Source: an uncultured Phycisphaerales bacterium
GTDB taxonomy: Bacteria > Planctomycetota > Phycisphaerae > Sedimentisphaerales > Anaerohalosphaeraceae
Assembly (NCBI GenBank): GCA_937868095.1
Contig: CALMLO010000042.1
Span: forward strand, 1-64,000
Direction of reading: 5' to 3'
DNA: 64,000 nt
Shown here piece by piece: positions 41,385-47,531 of the stretch. Position 1 is the stretch's first letter. Each line of letters starts with the position of its first letter. The position numbers were made by a program, and so were the translations under genes. Below the pieces are notes generated by a model. It saw only the letters and a list, made by a program, of their open reading frames with translations. It ran no database searches and was not told the DNA's origin.

Positions 41385-41413
41385 TTGATTGGCCAAACAA
41401 AATCCGCTATACT
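41385..41413 (+). promoter_or_regulatory. Sigma-70 promoter of the trp operon
   Basis: TTGATT (41385-41390) and TATACT (41408-41413) are separated by exactly 17 nt, a near-consensus promoter. Transcription is expected about 7 nt beyond the -10, at 41420-41421, which coincides with the ATG of the leader peptide. Confidence 0.75.
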
Positions 41414-41420
41414 TGTTTCT

Positions 41421-41474
41421 ATGAATAGAATCGTTTCCGTTCAAAAAGGGTATTGGCGACGACCGCAGGCATAG
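41421..41474 (+). CDS. trpL: trp operon leader peptide, 17 aa, single Trp, apparently leaderless
   Basis: ATG 41421 opens a 17-codon frame, MNRIVSVQKGYWRRPQA, ending at TAG 41472-41474. The single Trp codon (codon 12, 41454-41456) lies just before the first attenuator strand, and the preceding GY resembles the KGWWR context of the Escherichia coli leader. There is no Shine-Dalgarno sequence, and the promoter at 41385-41413 puts the mRNA 5' end at the ATG, so translation would begin on a leaderless transcript. Ribosome stalling at Trp 12 when charged tRNA-Trp is scarce would free the downstream strand. Leaderless trpL is known in Sinorhizobium. Confidence 0.7.
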   Translation: MNRIVSVQKGYWRRPQA

Positions 41475-41552
41475 GCCGGCGGTCAGCAGACACCCTTTTT
41501 CTGCTTCCAGGAACTATCCCTTCGCGACCCGGCCTTAAACGGGTCTTTTTTT
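41443..41552 (+). promoter_or_regulatory. trp attenuator with mutually exclusive hairpins
   Basis: Strand 1 is GACCGC (41461-41466), inside codons just after Trp 12. Strand 2 is GGCCGGCGGTC (41474-41484). Strand 3 is GACCCGGCC (41526-41534). Strand 4 is CGGGTC (41540-41545) followed by T7. Strand 1 pairs with the end of strand 2 (41479-41484), and strand 3 pairs with strand 4 to make the terminator. Alternatively GGCCGG of strand 2 pairs with CCGGCC of strand 3 (with GTC/GAC extension) and blocks termination. An outer 9-bp stem AAAAAGGGT (41443-41451) with ACCCTTTTT (41492-41500) further stabilises the 1:2 form. Confidence 0.75.
41526..41552 (+). terminator. Rho-independent terminator of the trp attenuator
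   Basis: Stem GACCCG (41526-41531) with CGGGTC (41540-41545), 8-nt loop, directly followed by seven T (41546-41552). It lies 31 nt before the trpE start and would stop transcription when the leader peptide is translated without stalling. Confidence 0.85.
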
Positions 41553-41583: not shown

Positions 41584-43221
41584 ATGAGTGATTATCAAAC
41601 AAGAATCAAGCAAGCCAAACCGGGACAAATCATTCCGATGGTCCGTGAAATTGAGATGGCCTGCCCCGTCGAGTTTTTCTCGCGCCTGAGCGATTACGGA
41701 CGGGCCGAACACTGCTGCCTGCTCGAATCCCGCGATTACCTGTCGGAAGCCAAAGGCAATGAACTGACGTTCGGCACCGCCGACCCCGCTCTTTACCTGA
41801 CCGGCAAGGCCGACCAATTTGAGATTCGCGCCCTCAACTCCACCGGCCGGCGAATCATTCAGCACTTGGCCGAGCACCCCGAGCGGTTTTCTTTCTGCCG
41901 CACAATTAAGTTCACTGACGGCCTCATCACCGGCATCCTCCAGCGAAACGCCGAAAAAACCGACGAACTGTCCCGCCTCAAAAGCGTCAGCCAGATGGAT
42001 GTTATCCGGGCGGTTGCCTTTGCCTTTGAACTGGCCAGCCCCCCTTTCCGGGTCACCTGCGGACTGTTTGGTGCTGTCAGTTATGATTTTATCGATCAAT
42101 TTGAGACCCTGCCGCCCAATCGGCAGGACGTGCTGAACAATCCTGATTACGAGCTGTATTTTGCAGACAACATCTTTCTGATGGACCATCATCAGAGCAA
42201 AGGGTATCTCATCGTTAATGCTATCATCACCAACGGCAACCGCCAGGCCATTTATGAAGAGGCAATGGAACGGTTCGACCGCTATCTTCAGCAGGTCCAG
42301 GCCAATCGTCCTGAGCCGGCATTTTGGGAAGGCCCCCTCCCGCCTGCCGGCACGGATACCCCCCGGCCTGAATATGAATCGATGGTTCAAAAAGCCAAAG
42401 AACACATTCGCAACGGAGACATTTTTCAGGTGGTTTTGAGCCGAACCCTTACCGAGCCGTGTCCAGCCGAACCGCTGGATGTCTATCGCCGCCTTCGCCT
42501 GCTGAACCCGTCTCCTTATATGTTTTATTTTCACACCAGCCGAACCTGCCTCATCGGCGCCAGCCCCGAACTGAACCTTCGGGTAAGCGGAAAAAAGGAT
42601 CGGATTGTTGAAATCCGCCCTATTGCCGGCACCAAACCGCGCGGCTGGGTCGGCGGGGTCATCGACCCGGAAACGGATATGCGGTACGAAGCCGAACTGC
42701 ATCTGGATCATAAGGAACTGGCCGAACATATGATGCTGGTGGACCTGGCCCGAAACGACATCGCCCGCGTCGCCTGCCCGGGCTCCCGACTGGTTAACGA
42801 GCTGCTTACTGTCGAACACTATGAATCGGTGATGCATCTGGTAAGCAACGTCAAAGGCAAACTGCGGCCCGACCTGGATGCCCTCAGCGCCTATCTGGCC
42901 ACAATGAACATGGGCACGCTGACGGGTGCTCCCAAGATTGAGGCAATGAAAATCATCCGGCAGCTCGAACCGGACAAACGCGGCTACTACGGCGGCGCTG
43001 TGATGTATCTGACGGTGGACGGGCAGTTTGACAGCTGCATCACCATCCGAAGTTTGCAGATTCGAGACCATACGGCCTACATTCGGGCCGGTGCCGGCAT
43101 CGTCCACGACAGCATTCCCGAGATGGAGTTCGACGAAACAGAAAACAAGGCCAGATCGTGTCTGAAGGCCGTCCGACTTGCCTCCGCCCAAGCGGCCCAA
43201 CAACCTCTGCCCTATCCATAA
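41584..43221 (+). CDS. trpE: Anthranilate synthase component I
   Basis: This 545-residue protein starts after AAGGACGCAAAACAG. The N-terminal regulatory part includes CLLESRD, the Trp-binding LLES motif of feedback-sensitive TrpE. The C-terminal chorismate-binding part has IFQVVLSRTL, PSPYMFYFHTS, IGASPELNLRVSG, EIRPIAGTKPRG, DLARNDIARV, VMHLVSNVKG, GTLTGAPKIEAMKII and YYGGAVMYLTVDG. It makes anthranilate from chorismate with ammonia from TrpG. It is the first structural gene after the attenuator. TrpE and TrpG are separate genes here, with a 9-nt gap. Confidence 0.95.
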   Translation: MSDYQTRIKQAKPGQIIPMVREIEMACPVEFFSRLSDYGRAEHCCLLESRDYLSEAKGNELTFGTADPALYLTGKADQFEIRALNSTGRRIIQHLAEHPERFSFCRTIKFTDGLITGILQRNAEKTDELSRLKSVSQMDVIRAVAFAFELASPPFRVTCGLFGAVSYDFIDQFETLPPNRQDVLNNPDYELYFADNIFLMDHHQSKGYLIVNAIITNGNRQAIYEEAMERFDRYLQQVQANRPEPAFWEGPLPPAGTDTPRPEYESMVQKAKEHIRNGDIFQVVLSRTLTEPCPAEPLDVYRRLRLLNPSPYMFYFHTSRTCLIGASPELNLRVSGKKDRIVEIRPIAGTKPRGWVGGVIDPETDMRYEAELHLDHKELAEHMMLVDLARNDIARVACPGSRLVNELLTVEHYESVMHLVSNVKGKLRPDLDALSAYLATMNMGTLTGAPKIEAMKIIRQLEPDKRGYYGGAVMYLTVDGQFDSCITIRSLQIRDHTAYIRAGAGIVHDSIPEMEFDETENKARSCLKAVRLASAQAAQQPLPYP

Positions 43222-43230
43222 GGAGAAACC

Positions 43231-43842
43231 ATGGAACCCGTACGCGTCCTGTTCATTGATAACTTTGACTCATTCACCTATAACCTTGTCGATGAATTTG
43301 CCAAGCGCAAATGCCCGACTCTGGTGTACCGCTCAGACACGCCTCTTCCGGCCCTGCTCCGTGCCGCCGACCAGTTCGAGGCCCAGCTTCTGGTTATTTC
43401 CCCCGGTCCAGGCACCCCTTCGGCGGCAGGCGTTTCCCTGGAAGCCATCGACCATTTCCACACAAAACTGCCTATCTTTGGGGTCTGCTTAGGCCATCAG
43501 GCCATTGTCCAATATTTTGGAGGGGTCATCAGCCACGCCCCCTGCGTGATGCACGGAAAGGCCTCACGAATCACCCATACGGGAAAAGGTCTATTTCAGG
43601 GTCTGGAAAATCCTCTCCATGCCGGCCGCTACCATAGTCTGTGTGCGGCCACCCTCCCTGACTGCCTGGAACAAACAGCCGTCTTTGAAAACATCGTGAT
43701 GGGTATCCAGCACAAAGAGCTGCCGATTTACGGTGTCCAGTTTCACCCCGAAAGCATTCTTACGCCTACAGGGGGAAAAATCATCGAAAATGTCCTGAAA
43801 ATTGCCTCTCATCGCAAACAAACCGTTGTTAAGACAAATTAG
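43231..43842 (+). CDS. trpG: Anthranilate synthase component II (glutamine amidotransferase)
   Basis: This 203-residue class I amidotransferase has LFIDNFDSFTYNLVDEF at the start, LLVISPGPGTPSAAG, the nucleophile Cys in FGVCLGHQAI, and the His/Glu pair in GVQFHPESILTP. It supplies ammonia to TrpE. AGGAGAAACC precedes its ATG. PabA activity for folate is possible as well, but the position in the trp operon favours TrpG. Confidence 0.93.
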   Translation: MEPVRVLFIDNFDSFTYNLVDEFAKRKCPTLVYRSDTPLPALLRAADQFEAQLLVISPGPGTPSAAGVSLEAIDHFHTKLPIFGVCLGHQAIVQYFGGVISHAPCVMHGKASRITHTGKGLFQGLENPLHAGRYHSLCAATLPDCLEQTAVFENIVMGIQHKELPIYGVQFHPESILTPTGGKIIENVLKIASHRKQTVVKTN

Positions 43843-43853
43843 GAGAGAATCGT

Positions 43854-44873
43854 ATGACCAAAATCACCAAATATCTTGAAATTATTCTGGAGGGCAATGA
43901 CCTTACTTTCGAGCAGGCCAAGCAGCTGCTGGATACCATCTTTGAAGGGGATGTGGCCGAAGTTCAGATTGCGGCTTTCCTGGCTGCCATGCGAGTAAAA
44001 AAGGCCTCTGTGGGCGAACTGGCGGGGCTGGCTTCTTCCCTTCGAGAACATGCCGTAACGGTCTATGCGGGCGTGGACAATCTTGTCGATACCTGCGGCA
44101 CAGGAGGGGCGGCTCTGAAAACCTTCAACATCTCCACCACCGCTGCCTTCGTCGCCGCCGGCGCCGGCGCGTATATTGCCAAACACGGCAATCGAGGCAT
44201 CACCAGCGTCTGCGGCTCCGCTGACCTGCTTGTTGCCCTCGGCGTCAATATCGACGCCGGCCCGGACACCGTGGCCCGCTGCATTCGAGAAGCGCATATC
44301 GGGTTTATGTTTGCTCCTAAGTTCCACCCGGCGATGAGACATGTCCAGCCCATTCGCAAAACGCTCGATTTCACCACCGCTTTCAATCTTTTGGGGCCCC
44401 TGGCTAATCCTGCTCATGCCTCAGCCCAGGTGATGGGGGTTTCCGAGGCCTCTCTGATGCCGCGTATCGCCGAAACCCTCAAAGTGCTCGGCCTGCGCCG
44501 GGCGATGGTCGTCCACAGCAACGGTTTGGACGAAATCAGCACAATGGGCCCTACGCGGATTTTTCATCTTTACACCGACGGCTCCGTTGCAGAGGAAATT
44601 TTTGATGCAGAACGGTACGGCATTCCCAAAGCAGAATACGACGAACTTGCCGGCGGTGATGTGGATACCAACGCCCATATCCTGCGGGAAATTCTGTTTG
44701 AAAAAGCCGACGGTCCGCGAAAAGATATTGTGCTTTTGAATGCCGCTGCTGCTATAATAGCGGCAGGTCTGGCTGATGACTTCGCAGAAGGCATCGAAAA
44801 GGCCGATGAGTCCATCTGTTCCGGAAAGGCCGCCGAATGCCTGGAAAAACTGGTTGAATTAAGCAATCACTGA
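43854..44873 (+). CDS. trpD: Anthranilate phosphoribosyltransferase
   Basis: This 339-residue protein has the phosphoribosyl pyrophosphate site VDTCGTGGAALKTFNISTT, then KHGNRGITSVCGSADLL, FAPKFHPAMRHVQPIR and FNLLGPLANPAHA, all TrpD signatures. It transfers phosphoribose to anthranilate. AGGAGAGAATCGT precedes the ATG, and trpF follows 17 nt later with no trpC between. Confidence 0.95.
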   Translation: MTKITKYLEIILEGNDLTFEQAKQLLDTIFEGDVAEVQIAAFLAAMRVKKASVGELAGLASSLREHAVTVYAGVDNLVDTCGTGGAALKTFNISTTAAFVAAGAGAYIAKHGNRGITSVCGSADLLVALGVNIDAGPDTVARCIREAHIGFMFAPKFHPAMRHVQPIRKTLDFTTAFNLLGPLANPAHASAQVMGVSEASLMPRIAETLKVLGLRRAMVVHSNGLDEISTMGPTRIFHLYTDGSVAEEIFDAERYGIPKAEYDELAGGDVDTNAHILREILFEKADGPRKDIVLLNAAAAIIAAGLADDFAEGIEKADESICSGKAAECLEKLVELSNH

Positions 44874-44890
44874 AACGTCTCCAAAAGCGT

Positions 44891-45529
44891 ATGATCTTTA
44901 CAAAAATAAAAATCTGTGGAATTACCAATCTGGAAGACGCCCTGGCGGCCGTCAGATTCGGCGCAGACATGCTGGGTTTTATCTTCTATCCCAAAAGCCC
45001 TCGATACATCGACCGGGAAAAGGCGTGGGAAATCATCCGCCAAATCCCCACTTCGATTGATACGGTCGGCGTCTTTGTCAATCCCTCCATTCAGGAGATT
45101 CAGGAAACCGCCCAGCAGGGCTGGTTCAACTGGATTCAGCTTCACGGAGAGGAAACAGCCGATTTCTGCCGTTCCCTGCACTGGCTGAACATTCGCCTGA
45201 TCAAGGCCGTTCGGGTCAAAAACCGTTCCGACATCGAGCAGTCCCTTACGTACCCGACGGATGCGATCCTGCTGGACACCTATACCGACGGCCTTTACGG
45301 CGGCAGCGGAGAAACCTTCGACTGGTCCTGGATCGGCTACCCGCCCCGGCGGCTCTTTCTCTCCGGCGGCATCGGCCCTCACAATATCCTGGAGGCCCTC
45401 GAAGTCGGTACGTATGCCATCGACATCAACAGCAGTGTGGAAAGTACGCCCGGCAAAAAAGACCACGAGAAAATGAAACAGCTCTTTGATACCATCAGCC
45501 GCATTCACGGCAGAAAGGTCCGCAAATGA
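44891..45529 (+). CDS. trpF: Phosphoribosylanthranilate isomerase
   Basis: This 212-residue TIM barrel begins [14 protein letters not shown] with the catalytic Cys of KICG, then [36 protein letters not shown] with the catalytic Asp, and [10 protein letters not shown], the phosphate loop. It isomerises N-(5'-phosphoribosyl)anthranilate. Its stop overlaps the trpB start by 4 nt. In this operon it follows trpD directly, without the indole-glycerol-phosphate synthase gene. Confidence 0.93.
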
Positions 45530-46713
45530 AACACAAAGGACGATTCGGCCCTTTTGGCGGGTATTATGTGCCAGAAGTGCTTATTCCAGCCCTTGAGGAA
45601 ATTGAATCCGCCTTCGAGCAGTTTCGCAATGACAGGAGATTTCTTCAGGAACTGAACACGCTCTTTACGGATTATGCTGGACGTCCCACCCCCCTCTATC
45701 ACGCCCGACGTTTCAGCGAAGTGACGGGCTTTCCGGTCTATCTCAAACGAGAAGATCTCCTCCACGGCGGGGCTCACAAAATCAACAATGCCCTCGGACA
45801 AGGGCTTCTGGCCCGCTATATGGGCAAAAGCAAACTGATTGCGGAAACCGGTGCCGGCCAGCACGGTCTGGCGACGGCTATCGTCGGGGCTCTTTTGGGA
45901 ATGGAAACCAAAATCTTTATGGGTTTTACCGATGTGGCCCGTCAGAACGTAAACGTCCGCAAAATGCGTCTTCTCGGTGCGGAAGTCATTGCCGTCGAAG
46001 GGGGAACCGGAACCCTCAAAGATGCCATCAATGAAGCGTTCCGATACTGGACAGCCCACGTCGAAGACACCTTCTACCTGTTTGGAACGGCCGGCGGTCC
46101 GCATCCTTATCCGACGATTGTGCGGCACTTTCAGTCCCCCATTGGGCAGGAAGCTCGCCGGCAATGCCTTGAAAAGACCGGGCGGCTGCCGGACATCGTA
46201 ACGGCCTGCGTGGGGGGCGGCTCCAACGCCATCGGCATCTTTTCGGCTTTTCTCGACGATCCGCAAGTCCGGCTGGTCGGCGTGGAAGGCGGCGGCAAAG
46301 GACTCCAGACCACCCAGCACTGTGCCACCCTCTGCCGGGGCAGAGTCGGTATTCTGCACGGCGCTCGCACCTATCTGCTTCAGGACGAGAACGGCCAAAT
46401 CCGCGATACAGAATGCATCTCCGCCGGCTTGGATTACCCGGGCGTCGGGCCTGAACACGCCCACCTCAAGGAAACAGGCCGTGCCGAGTACGTCAGTGTC
46501 GAAGATGAAGAGGTTCTCGATACCTTTTTCCTGTTCTCGAAGACTGAAGGCATCCTGCCTGCTCTCGAAAGCACCCATGCCCTTGCCTGGCTGTGTCAGC
46601 AAAAAGGCATCCTTCCTCCGGAAACCATCGTCATTGCGAACCTGTCCGGACGCGGCGACAAAGACATCGATATCGTTGAACACCACAGACCCCTTGCTTC
46701 GAGGTCCTTATGA
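45526..46713 (+). CDS. trpB: Tryptophan synthase beta chain
   Basis: At 395 residues it is a TrpB1-type beta chain: [19 protein letters not shown], the PLP lysine in [40 protein letters not shown] for phosphate binding, and [16 protein letters not shown]. It condenses indole and serine to tryptophan. It overlaps trpF by ATGA and trpA by ATGA, so translation of the three genes is coupled. Confidence 0.96.
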
Positions 46714-47531
46714 ATGCTTATCAAGCGTGCTTTTCCAAACTCGACCGTGCGGCTCTGATTCCTTTTTTCGTCATCGGCGATCCCTCCTACGACGTGAGCG
46801 CTGAACTGGTGAAAGCCGCCATTGATGCCGGTGCCGACATTCTCGAGCTGGGAATCCCGTTTTCAGACCCGGTGGCAGACGGCCCTACCATCCAGAAGGC
46901 CGACCTGCGGGCTTTGAAAGCCGGCATGACCCCCGCGCGGGCAATTGAGTTCATCCGCGAAATTACGGCCTATAAACCCATTCCCATTGGTCTTTTGGTT
47001 TACTACAATCTTTTGGTTCAGTACGGCGTGAACAGATTCTTTGAAGACTTCAAGCAGGCCGGCGGCACAAGTGTACTGGTTGCAGACCTTTCGATTGATG
47101 ACGCCGATGAAATCATTCCTTCGGCCCGGCGGGTGGGGCTGGAAACGGTCTTTATGGCCACCCCCAACACTCCTGACGGGCGGCTGCGGTTCATTTCCGA
47201 AAAAACCACCGGTTTTATTTATGCCGTCTCTCTGCTGGGAACCACGGGGGAGCGAGCGGCACTTTCCCAAACCGTTCGCCCGTTCCTTTCCCGCCTTAAG
47301 CGTCTGACCGACAAGCCGATTTGCGTAGGATTCGGCATCAGCAGTCCTGAACATGCATTTGAGGTAGCCCAAGCCGGTGCGGACGGCGTCATCATCGGCA
47401 GCCGCATCGTCAAATTTATTGAAGAAAATCCGGAGAACCCTGCCCGAATAAAAGAGAACATCACCCGTTTTATCCGAGATGTGCTGGACAAGCTGCCCCC
47501 CCAATCGCCAAAGAGCCGTCCGTCCTCCTAA
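46710..47531 (+). CDS. trpA: Tryptophan synthase alpha chain
   Basis: This 273-residue TIM barrel has the catalytic Glu in [20 protein letters not shown], catalytic Asp in [25 protein letters not shown] and the phosphate-binding [14 protein letters not shown] plus GVIIGSRIV. It cleaves indole-3-glycerol phosphate to indole, which is channelled to TrpB. It overlaps the trpB stop. Its 3' end overlaps the end of the minus-strand gene at 47528 by 4 nt, with no terminator hairpin visible. Confidence 0.95.

Follow-up and report, generated by a model that had tools for sequence, protein, structure and literature searches.

The trpEGDFBA operon of an uncultured Phycisphaerales bacterium is very probably under double control, in which repression of transcription initiation by TrpR would be followed by ribosome-mediated attenuation of readthrough. 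The operon occupies positions 41584-47531 of the analysed stretch of 64,000 nt (contig CALMLO010000042.1, forward strand; hereafter the window) and lacks trpC; the only IGPS gene (trpC) over cutoff in the window genome is located at C36:98249-99028, and no palindrome of the kind described below was found near it. The trp attenuator of the window is real and present throughout the order Sedimentisphaerales. With less assurance, we lean towards an arrangement in which one 18-bp sequence serves as candidate TrpR operator, as transcription start, and as start and first codons of a leaderless leader gene, the site thereby dictating the N-terminus of the peptide (M-x-R-N); it would have been gained or lost together with trpR on top of the order-wide attenuator, one genus combining a single Trp codon with the presence of TrpR.

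Table. Features of the trp leader region and operon in the window
Feature	Position	Strand	Basis
-35 hexamer TTGATT	41385..41390	+	Sequence, promoter scan; TTGACA-like, 17 nt from -10 in most relatives
-10 hexamer TATACT	41408..41413	+	Sequence, promoter scan, comparison with relatives
Palindrome GTTTCTATGAATAGAATC, candidate TrpR operator spanning the predicted start site and leader ATG	41415..41432	+	Genome scan, TrpR co-occurrence
Leader ORF, 17 codons, MNRIVSVQKGYWRRPQA and stop, predicted leaderless	41421..41474	+	Sequence, relatives, alignment
Outer 5' arm of 1:2 hairpin, AAAAGGGT	41444..41451	+	Folding
Trp codon 12 (TGG), control codon	41454..41456	+	Sequence, alignment
Strand 1, GACCGCAGGC	41461..41470	+	Folding, 1:2 covariation
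Strand 2, AGGCCGGCGGTC, partner of 1 or 3	41473..41484	+	Folding, 1:2 and 2:3 covariation
Outer 3' arm of 1:2 hairpin, ACCCTTTT	41492..41499	+	Folding
Strand 3, GACCCGGCCT, partner of 2 or 4	41526..41535	+	Terminator scan, covariation, folding
Strand 4, CGGGTC	41540..41545	+	Terminator scan, 3:4 covariation
T7 tract of intrinsic terminator	41546..41552	+	Sequence, terminator scan
trpE, first structural gene	41584..43221	+	NF010079, above cutoff
trpG	43231..43842	+	TIGR00566
trpD	43854..44873	+	TIGR01245
trpF	44891..45529	+	NF002298
trpB	45526..46713	+	TIGR00263
trpA	46710..47531	+	TIGR00262

The two promoter hexamers are separated by a spacer of 17 nt, and the leader ATG (41421) lies 7 nt downstream of the -10 box, a gap too short for a Shine-Dalgarno (SD) site; translation of the leader gene is therefore very probably leaderless, as had been proposed in an earlier sequence-only reading of the window. 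A promoter scan of the plus strand returned exactly this TTGATT/TATACT pair (score 9/12) as the only promoter-like site near the leader. The leader ORF ends at a stop codon at 41472-41474, and its Trp12 aligns with the first TGG of a conserved Trp run, the T of which is invariant and both G of which are conserved in at least 90% of the alignment. Downstream, the terminator consists of the stem GACCCG-8-CGGGTC (41526-41545) followed by the T7 tract. The promoter, the 17-codon ORF with its single TGG, the four strands and the T7 terminator were all recovered at the coordinates given in that reading. Scanned over the whole window, promoter-like sites (4 versus 1.6 expected) and terminator-like sites (3 versus 2.6 expected) are near chance, so that it is conservation that lifts the element above chance. 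Searches with Rfam trp leader families gave no match in the window at the gathering score and nothing relevant at E ≤ 10.

The window leader folds better than its shuffled counterparts (z -3.25; 1 of 200 shuffles as good). With a ribosome placed at Trp12 and strand 4 omitted, the minimum-energy fold is the 2:3 helix (-21.6 kcal/mol), which is predicted to pair 41473-41479 with 41529-41535 and 41482-41484 with 41526-41528; 2:3 pairing in the window alone is marginal against shuffles (p 0.06). Once strand 4 is present, the terminator is predicted to be favoured at equilibrium even with the ribosome at Trp12 (probability 0.8-1.0 across stall positions), and the switch would therefore have to be kinetic, with 2:3 formed before strand 4 is made. 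The outer stem AAAAGGGT/ACCCTTTT lengthens the 1:2 hairpin of the window and is not evident in congeners or closest relatives.

TrpE was found in 57 of 59 relatives. The comparison covered 80 contigs, labelled mostly Phycisphaerae, Sedimentisphaerales or Planctomycetota, and comprised 84 distinct regions upstream of trpE after duplicate removal. A short Trp-containing leader ORF precedes trpE in 83 of these 84 regions of the order Sedimentisphaerales, and an automatic search detected a terminator 30-64 nt downstream of the leader stop in 78 of the 84. Between the end of the -10 box and the ATG, leaders of the parsed set have 4-13 nt (mostly 6-10) and those of the window clade 6 or 7 nt; individual values in the parsed set may be wrong because the parser takes the best-scoring -10 box. 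Strand 2 starts at a nearly fixed place: counted from the first Trp codon, the distance is 14-27 nt in all leaders, and in the window it is 19 nt from the first base of that codon. This is about where the edge of a stalled ribosome would be expected, with strand 1 masked and strand 2 free.

All three helices covary in an alignment of 66 sequences. Paired cells amount to 76% in helix 1:2, 81% in helix 2:3 and 95% in helix 3:4, and two-sided changes occur in 7 of 9, 8 of 11 and 6 of 8 pairs, respectively; for each helix the covariation score exceeds those of all 500 shuffles and of every slid register. Helix 2:3 excludes both 1:2 and 3:4 and yet is conserved with them, which is the signature of a switch. 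In the genus of the window, the strand sequences depart from the order consensus, yet 1:2, 2:3 and 3:4 can still pair. The covariance comparison of trpE leaders suggested by the sequence-only reading, with its covarying helices and almost universal Trp leader ORF, thus bears out the ribosome-mediated attenuator with mutually exclusive 1:2/3:4 and 2:3 pairings that it had described.

A covariance model derived from this alignment found matches in 53 genomes of the order among 298 genomes of the class, together with two weak ones outside the order, and gave no convincing match outside the class in a phylum-wide sample. The window copy, which was among the sequences used to build the model, is matched with E 9e-10 and a low score of 55 bits. 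Model matches in G206 and G483, the latter from the phylum-wide sample, show no Trp leader and were taken as false. Divergent leaders are missed by the model, including those of three genomes of family f4 (G037, G042 and G046), in which a divergent trpE has leader ORFs with Trp codons and terminators ahead of it and the 5' leader seems to be longer. In G042 and G046 (L245, L246), the palindrome described below and a leader ending in YNSFYWCWLPEK lie upstream of the divergent trpE, and purine-rich, AAGGA-like bases precede the leader ATG, an SD-led counterpart of the leaderless leader. Elsewhere, comparable leaders accompany other trp genes: a genome of the same class but another order (G319, L240:291), one of the two weak model matches outside Sedimentisphaerales, carries the leader MKRRNLSNFTWWWPTDIDAGG and a terminator upstream of an ORF read as trpD, and G051 of family f5 (L242:1690, minus strand) carries the leader MKNAANIWYSWWWRSRQYVGPGQ, with WWW, and a terminator upstream of trpB. 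The sequence-only reading was right about the attenuator of trpE and had missed these Trp-rich leaders on trpD and trpB of relatives.

The number of Trp codons per leader is three in 47 leaders, two in 32, one in two, four in one and five in one. The single-Trp leaders are those of the window and of one congener (L003); three other congeners (L002, L004 and L006) have WW and a fourth (L005) has two separated Trp codons. Since congeners keep two Trp codons, the lone codon is most simply explained if the second TGG has been replaced by CGA or CGG, which makes it a derived state and local reduction in two of the six genomes of the genus. The sequence-only reading had taken a lone Trp codon as the typical stalling site in this lineage, which does not agree with the two to five found in the other leaders.

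The start codon of the window leader lies inside the palindrome GTTTCTATnnATAGAAAC, and many leaders share the pattern GTTTCTAT-nn-ATAGAAAC, which encloses the ATG. In the 3.04-Mb window genome, the trp leader is the sole match to this palindrome with at most one mismatch; a second copy, with two mismatches (C41:33364-33381; L156:465-482), is located 32 nt upstream of the start of a TrpR homologue. In the comparative set, the palindrome occurs with up to three mismatches near the leader start in 24 of 84 leaders versus 4 of 4200 shuffled windows; chance occurrence is ruled out by the genome scan and by this comparison. Some palindromes with at most one mismatch beside unrelated genes in relatives were left out as sites. 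A near-perfect palindrome, GTTTCTTTCTATAGAAAC, was also observed just upstream of an ORF resembling a membrane transporter in G023 (L174:887), a genome in which TrpR was not found.

The occurrence of the palindrome follows that of TrpR. At trpE, 27 of 28 TrpR-positive loci carry a candidate operator (up to three mismatches) versus 3 of 17 TrpR-negative loci (Fisher p 6e-8, a value that overstates independence, as the genomes are related); eight of the TrpR-positive loci in this comparison were inspected manually, and an operator is present in seven of them and absent from one. Since f1 genomes are related to one another, most weight falls on the cases outside the family of the window, in f4, f5 and f7. 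In f4, the palindrome lies over the -35 box in L022 and L023, and at the start site upstream of a different, divergent trpE in G042; in f5, it lies upstream of trpE in G043 and G388; and in f7 it lies on the leader ATG of G355, the only genome of that family with TrpR over cutoff. One TrpR-positive f5 genome, G392 (L254:1258), has a WWW leader and no operator upstream of trpE, and an operator at its trpR (L225). The genomes with an operator in which TrpR was not found are three drafts, 68-91% complete. Of 29 genomes with TrpR, 22 also carry the palindrome ahead of the trpR gene (shuffle p ≤ 0.026 in each case), and in several of them the trpR ATG itself falls within it, so that trpR looks leaderless too. 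The sequence-only reading had recognized the attenuator and overlooked both the candidate operator over the leader start codon and the trpR gene elsewhere under the same operator.

TrpR (PF01371) was detected over cutoff in 29 of 161 genomes of the order, including that of the window (G000:C41:33438-33680). The window protein is nearer to the TrpR of TIGR01321 than to YerC, scoring 48 bits, below the curated equivalog cutoff of 67. The TrpR alignment profile matches solved E. coli TrpR chains, and in the proteins from families f1, f4, f5 and f7 (11 aligned members) the recognition segment SLCKITRG is invariant, as are R48, R77 and G78 of the window protein, which we take to correspond to the Trp-binding residues R54, R84 and G85 of E. 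coli TrpR. In the window genome, the trpR homologue under the palindrome is followed by a TrpB-like gene, and the same pair is found in G029 and G027.

These observations are consistent with the following course of events. When tryptophan is plentiful, TrpR, itself encoded under the same operator, would bind the palindrome and block initiation, a role suggested by its co-occurrence with the site and by conservation. Transcripts escaping repression would have their first base at the leader AUG or only a few bases away from it, and the leader would thus be translated leaderless. When Trp-tRNA is scarce, the ribosome would stall at Trp12 and mask strand 1, strand 2 would pair with strand 3, and transcription would continue into trpE. 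A ribosome that reaches the stop codon would instead mask strand 2, allowing the 3:4 terminator to form and transcription to end.

It is distinctly unlikely that attenuation is the only control here, the palindrome being a mere constraint on the leaderless start while TrpR acts elsewhere. The 3' half of the palindrome does encode the leader N-terminus (MNRN-like), and attenuation seems sufficient by itself in the TrpR-less families; however, the 5' half, GTTTCT, which would lie upstream of the transcript start, is kept in TrpR-positive genomes and free to vary in TrpR-negative ones, and copies also lie over the -35 box in f4 (L022, L023) and at trpR, where a leader peptide plays no part. That 5' half lying outside the predicted transcript, together with the same copies over -35 and at trpR, also led to rejection of a role for the palindrome as a hairpin in the RNA. 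A leader with a longer 5' untranslated region, and hence not leaderless, is highly improbable in the window: SD-led forms exist in the order, as the AAGGA-like bases in G042 and G046 indicate, but the single plus-strand promoter-like site near the window leader argues against it, as does the short gap between -10 box and ATG, both in the window clade and in the parsed set.

Double control could also be on its way out in the genus of the window, with TrpR now the main control and the attenuator decaying. This is unlikely, although the lone Trp codon, the low covariance-model score and a terminator stem of 6 bp versus 11-15 in many relatives would fit it, as would family means of 2.2 Trp codons in TrpR-positive leaders versus 3.0 in TrpR-negative ones. 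Against it, all three helices remain possible in six of the six genomes of the genus despite their changed sequences, the reading frame, the stop position and the first TGG are retained, and other TrpR-positive genomes retain three Trp codons. The lone Trp codon shares the stall zone with Arg codons 13 and 14 (CGA CGA), and the leader might therefore also sense another shortage: a stall at either codon would leave most of strand 2 free, and the predicted terminator probability is 0.8 there versus 1.0 elsewhere. This effect on the fold is weak, however, and Arg at these positions is not conserved across the order whereas Trp is, which makes such sensing very unlikely.

The trp operon of E. coli combines TrpR repression at the promoter, through a CTAG-type operator, with the four-strand ribosome-mediated trpL attenuator, and its trpR is autoregulated. 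The predicted system of the window resembles it in the candidate TrpR site at the promoter, the four-strand attenuator and the trpR gene under the same operator. It differs in that the leader is probably leaderless, with its start codon inside the operator, in the operator sequence itself (GTTTCTATnnATAGAAAC), and in the one to five Trp codons of leaders without an Rfam match. Neither trp attenuation nor TrpR operators in Planctomycetota were found in the literature searched, which is indicative only, most subscription papers lying outside the search; nor did that literature yield any previous account of E. coli-like double control of trp in this bacterial group. A classical attenuator is kept across a planctomycete order, with the TrpR layer present only in some members of four families, and this patchy distribution over a shared attenuator amounts to a natural experiment in how the two kinds of control are joined and set off against each other.

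The closest attenuator is that of Sinorhizobium meliloti, whose trpL (rnTrpL) transcript opens directly with the ATG of a small ORF containing Trp, a trp attenuator lying behind this ORF; trpLE(G) is stated there to be free of transcription repression (PMC7298713). The ORF-initial transcript, predicted for the window, and the trp attenuator are shared; in contrast, a candidate TrpR operator overlaps the start here, in another phylum and another operon. Comparative genomics has likewise predicted attenuators ahead of amino acid genes in Actinobacteria, trp among them, with leader peptides and terminators as their parts (PMC1262725, PMC4833913); these belong to another phylum, and the parts of these sources consulted describe neither a leaderless form nor a TrpR operator. 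Within the PVC group, TrpR is known from the trpRBA operon of Chlamydia, where its gene adjoins that for the tryptophan synthase beta subunit and the second control is exerted by the iron repressor YtgR (PMC7755916). The trpR of the window genome, followed by a TrpB-like gene, recalls this arrangement, whereas the second control here would be a leader-peptide attenuator rather than YtgR.
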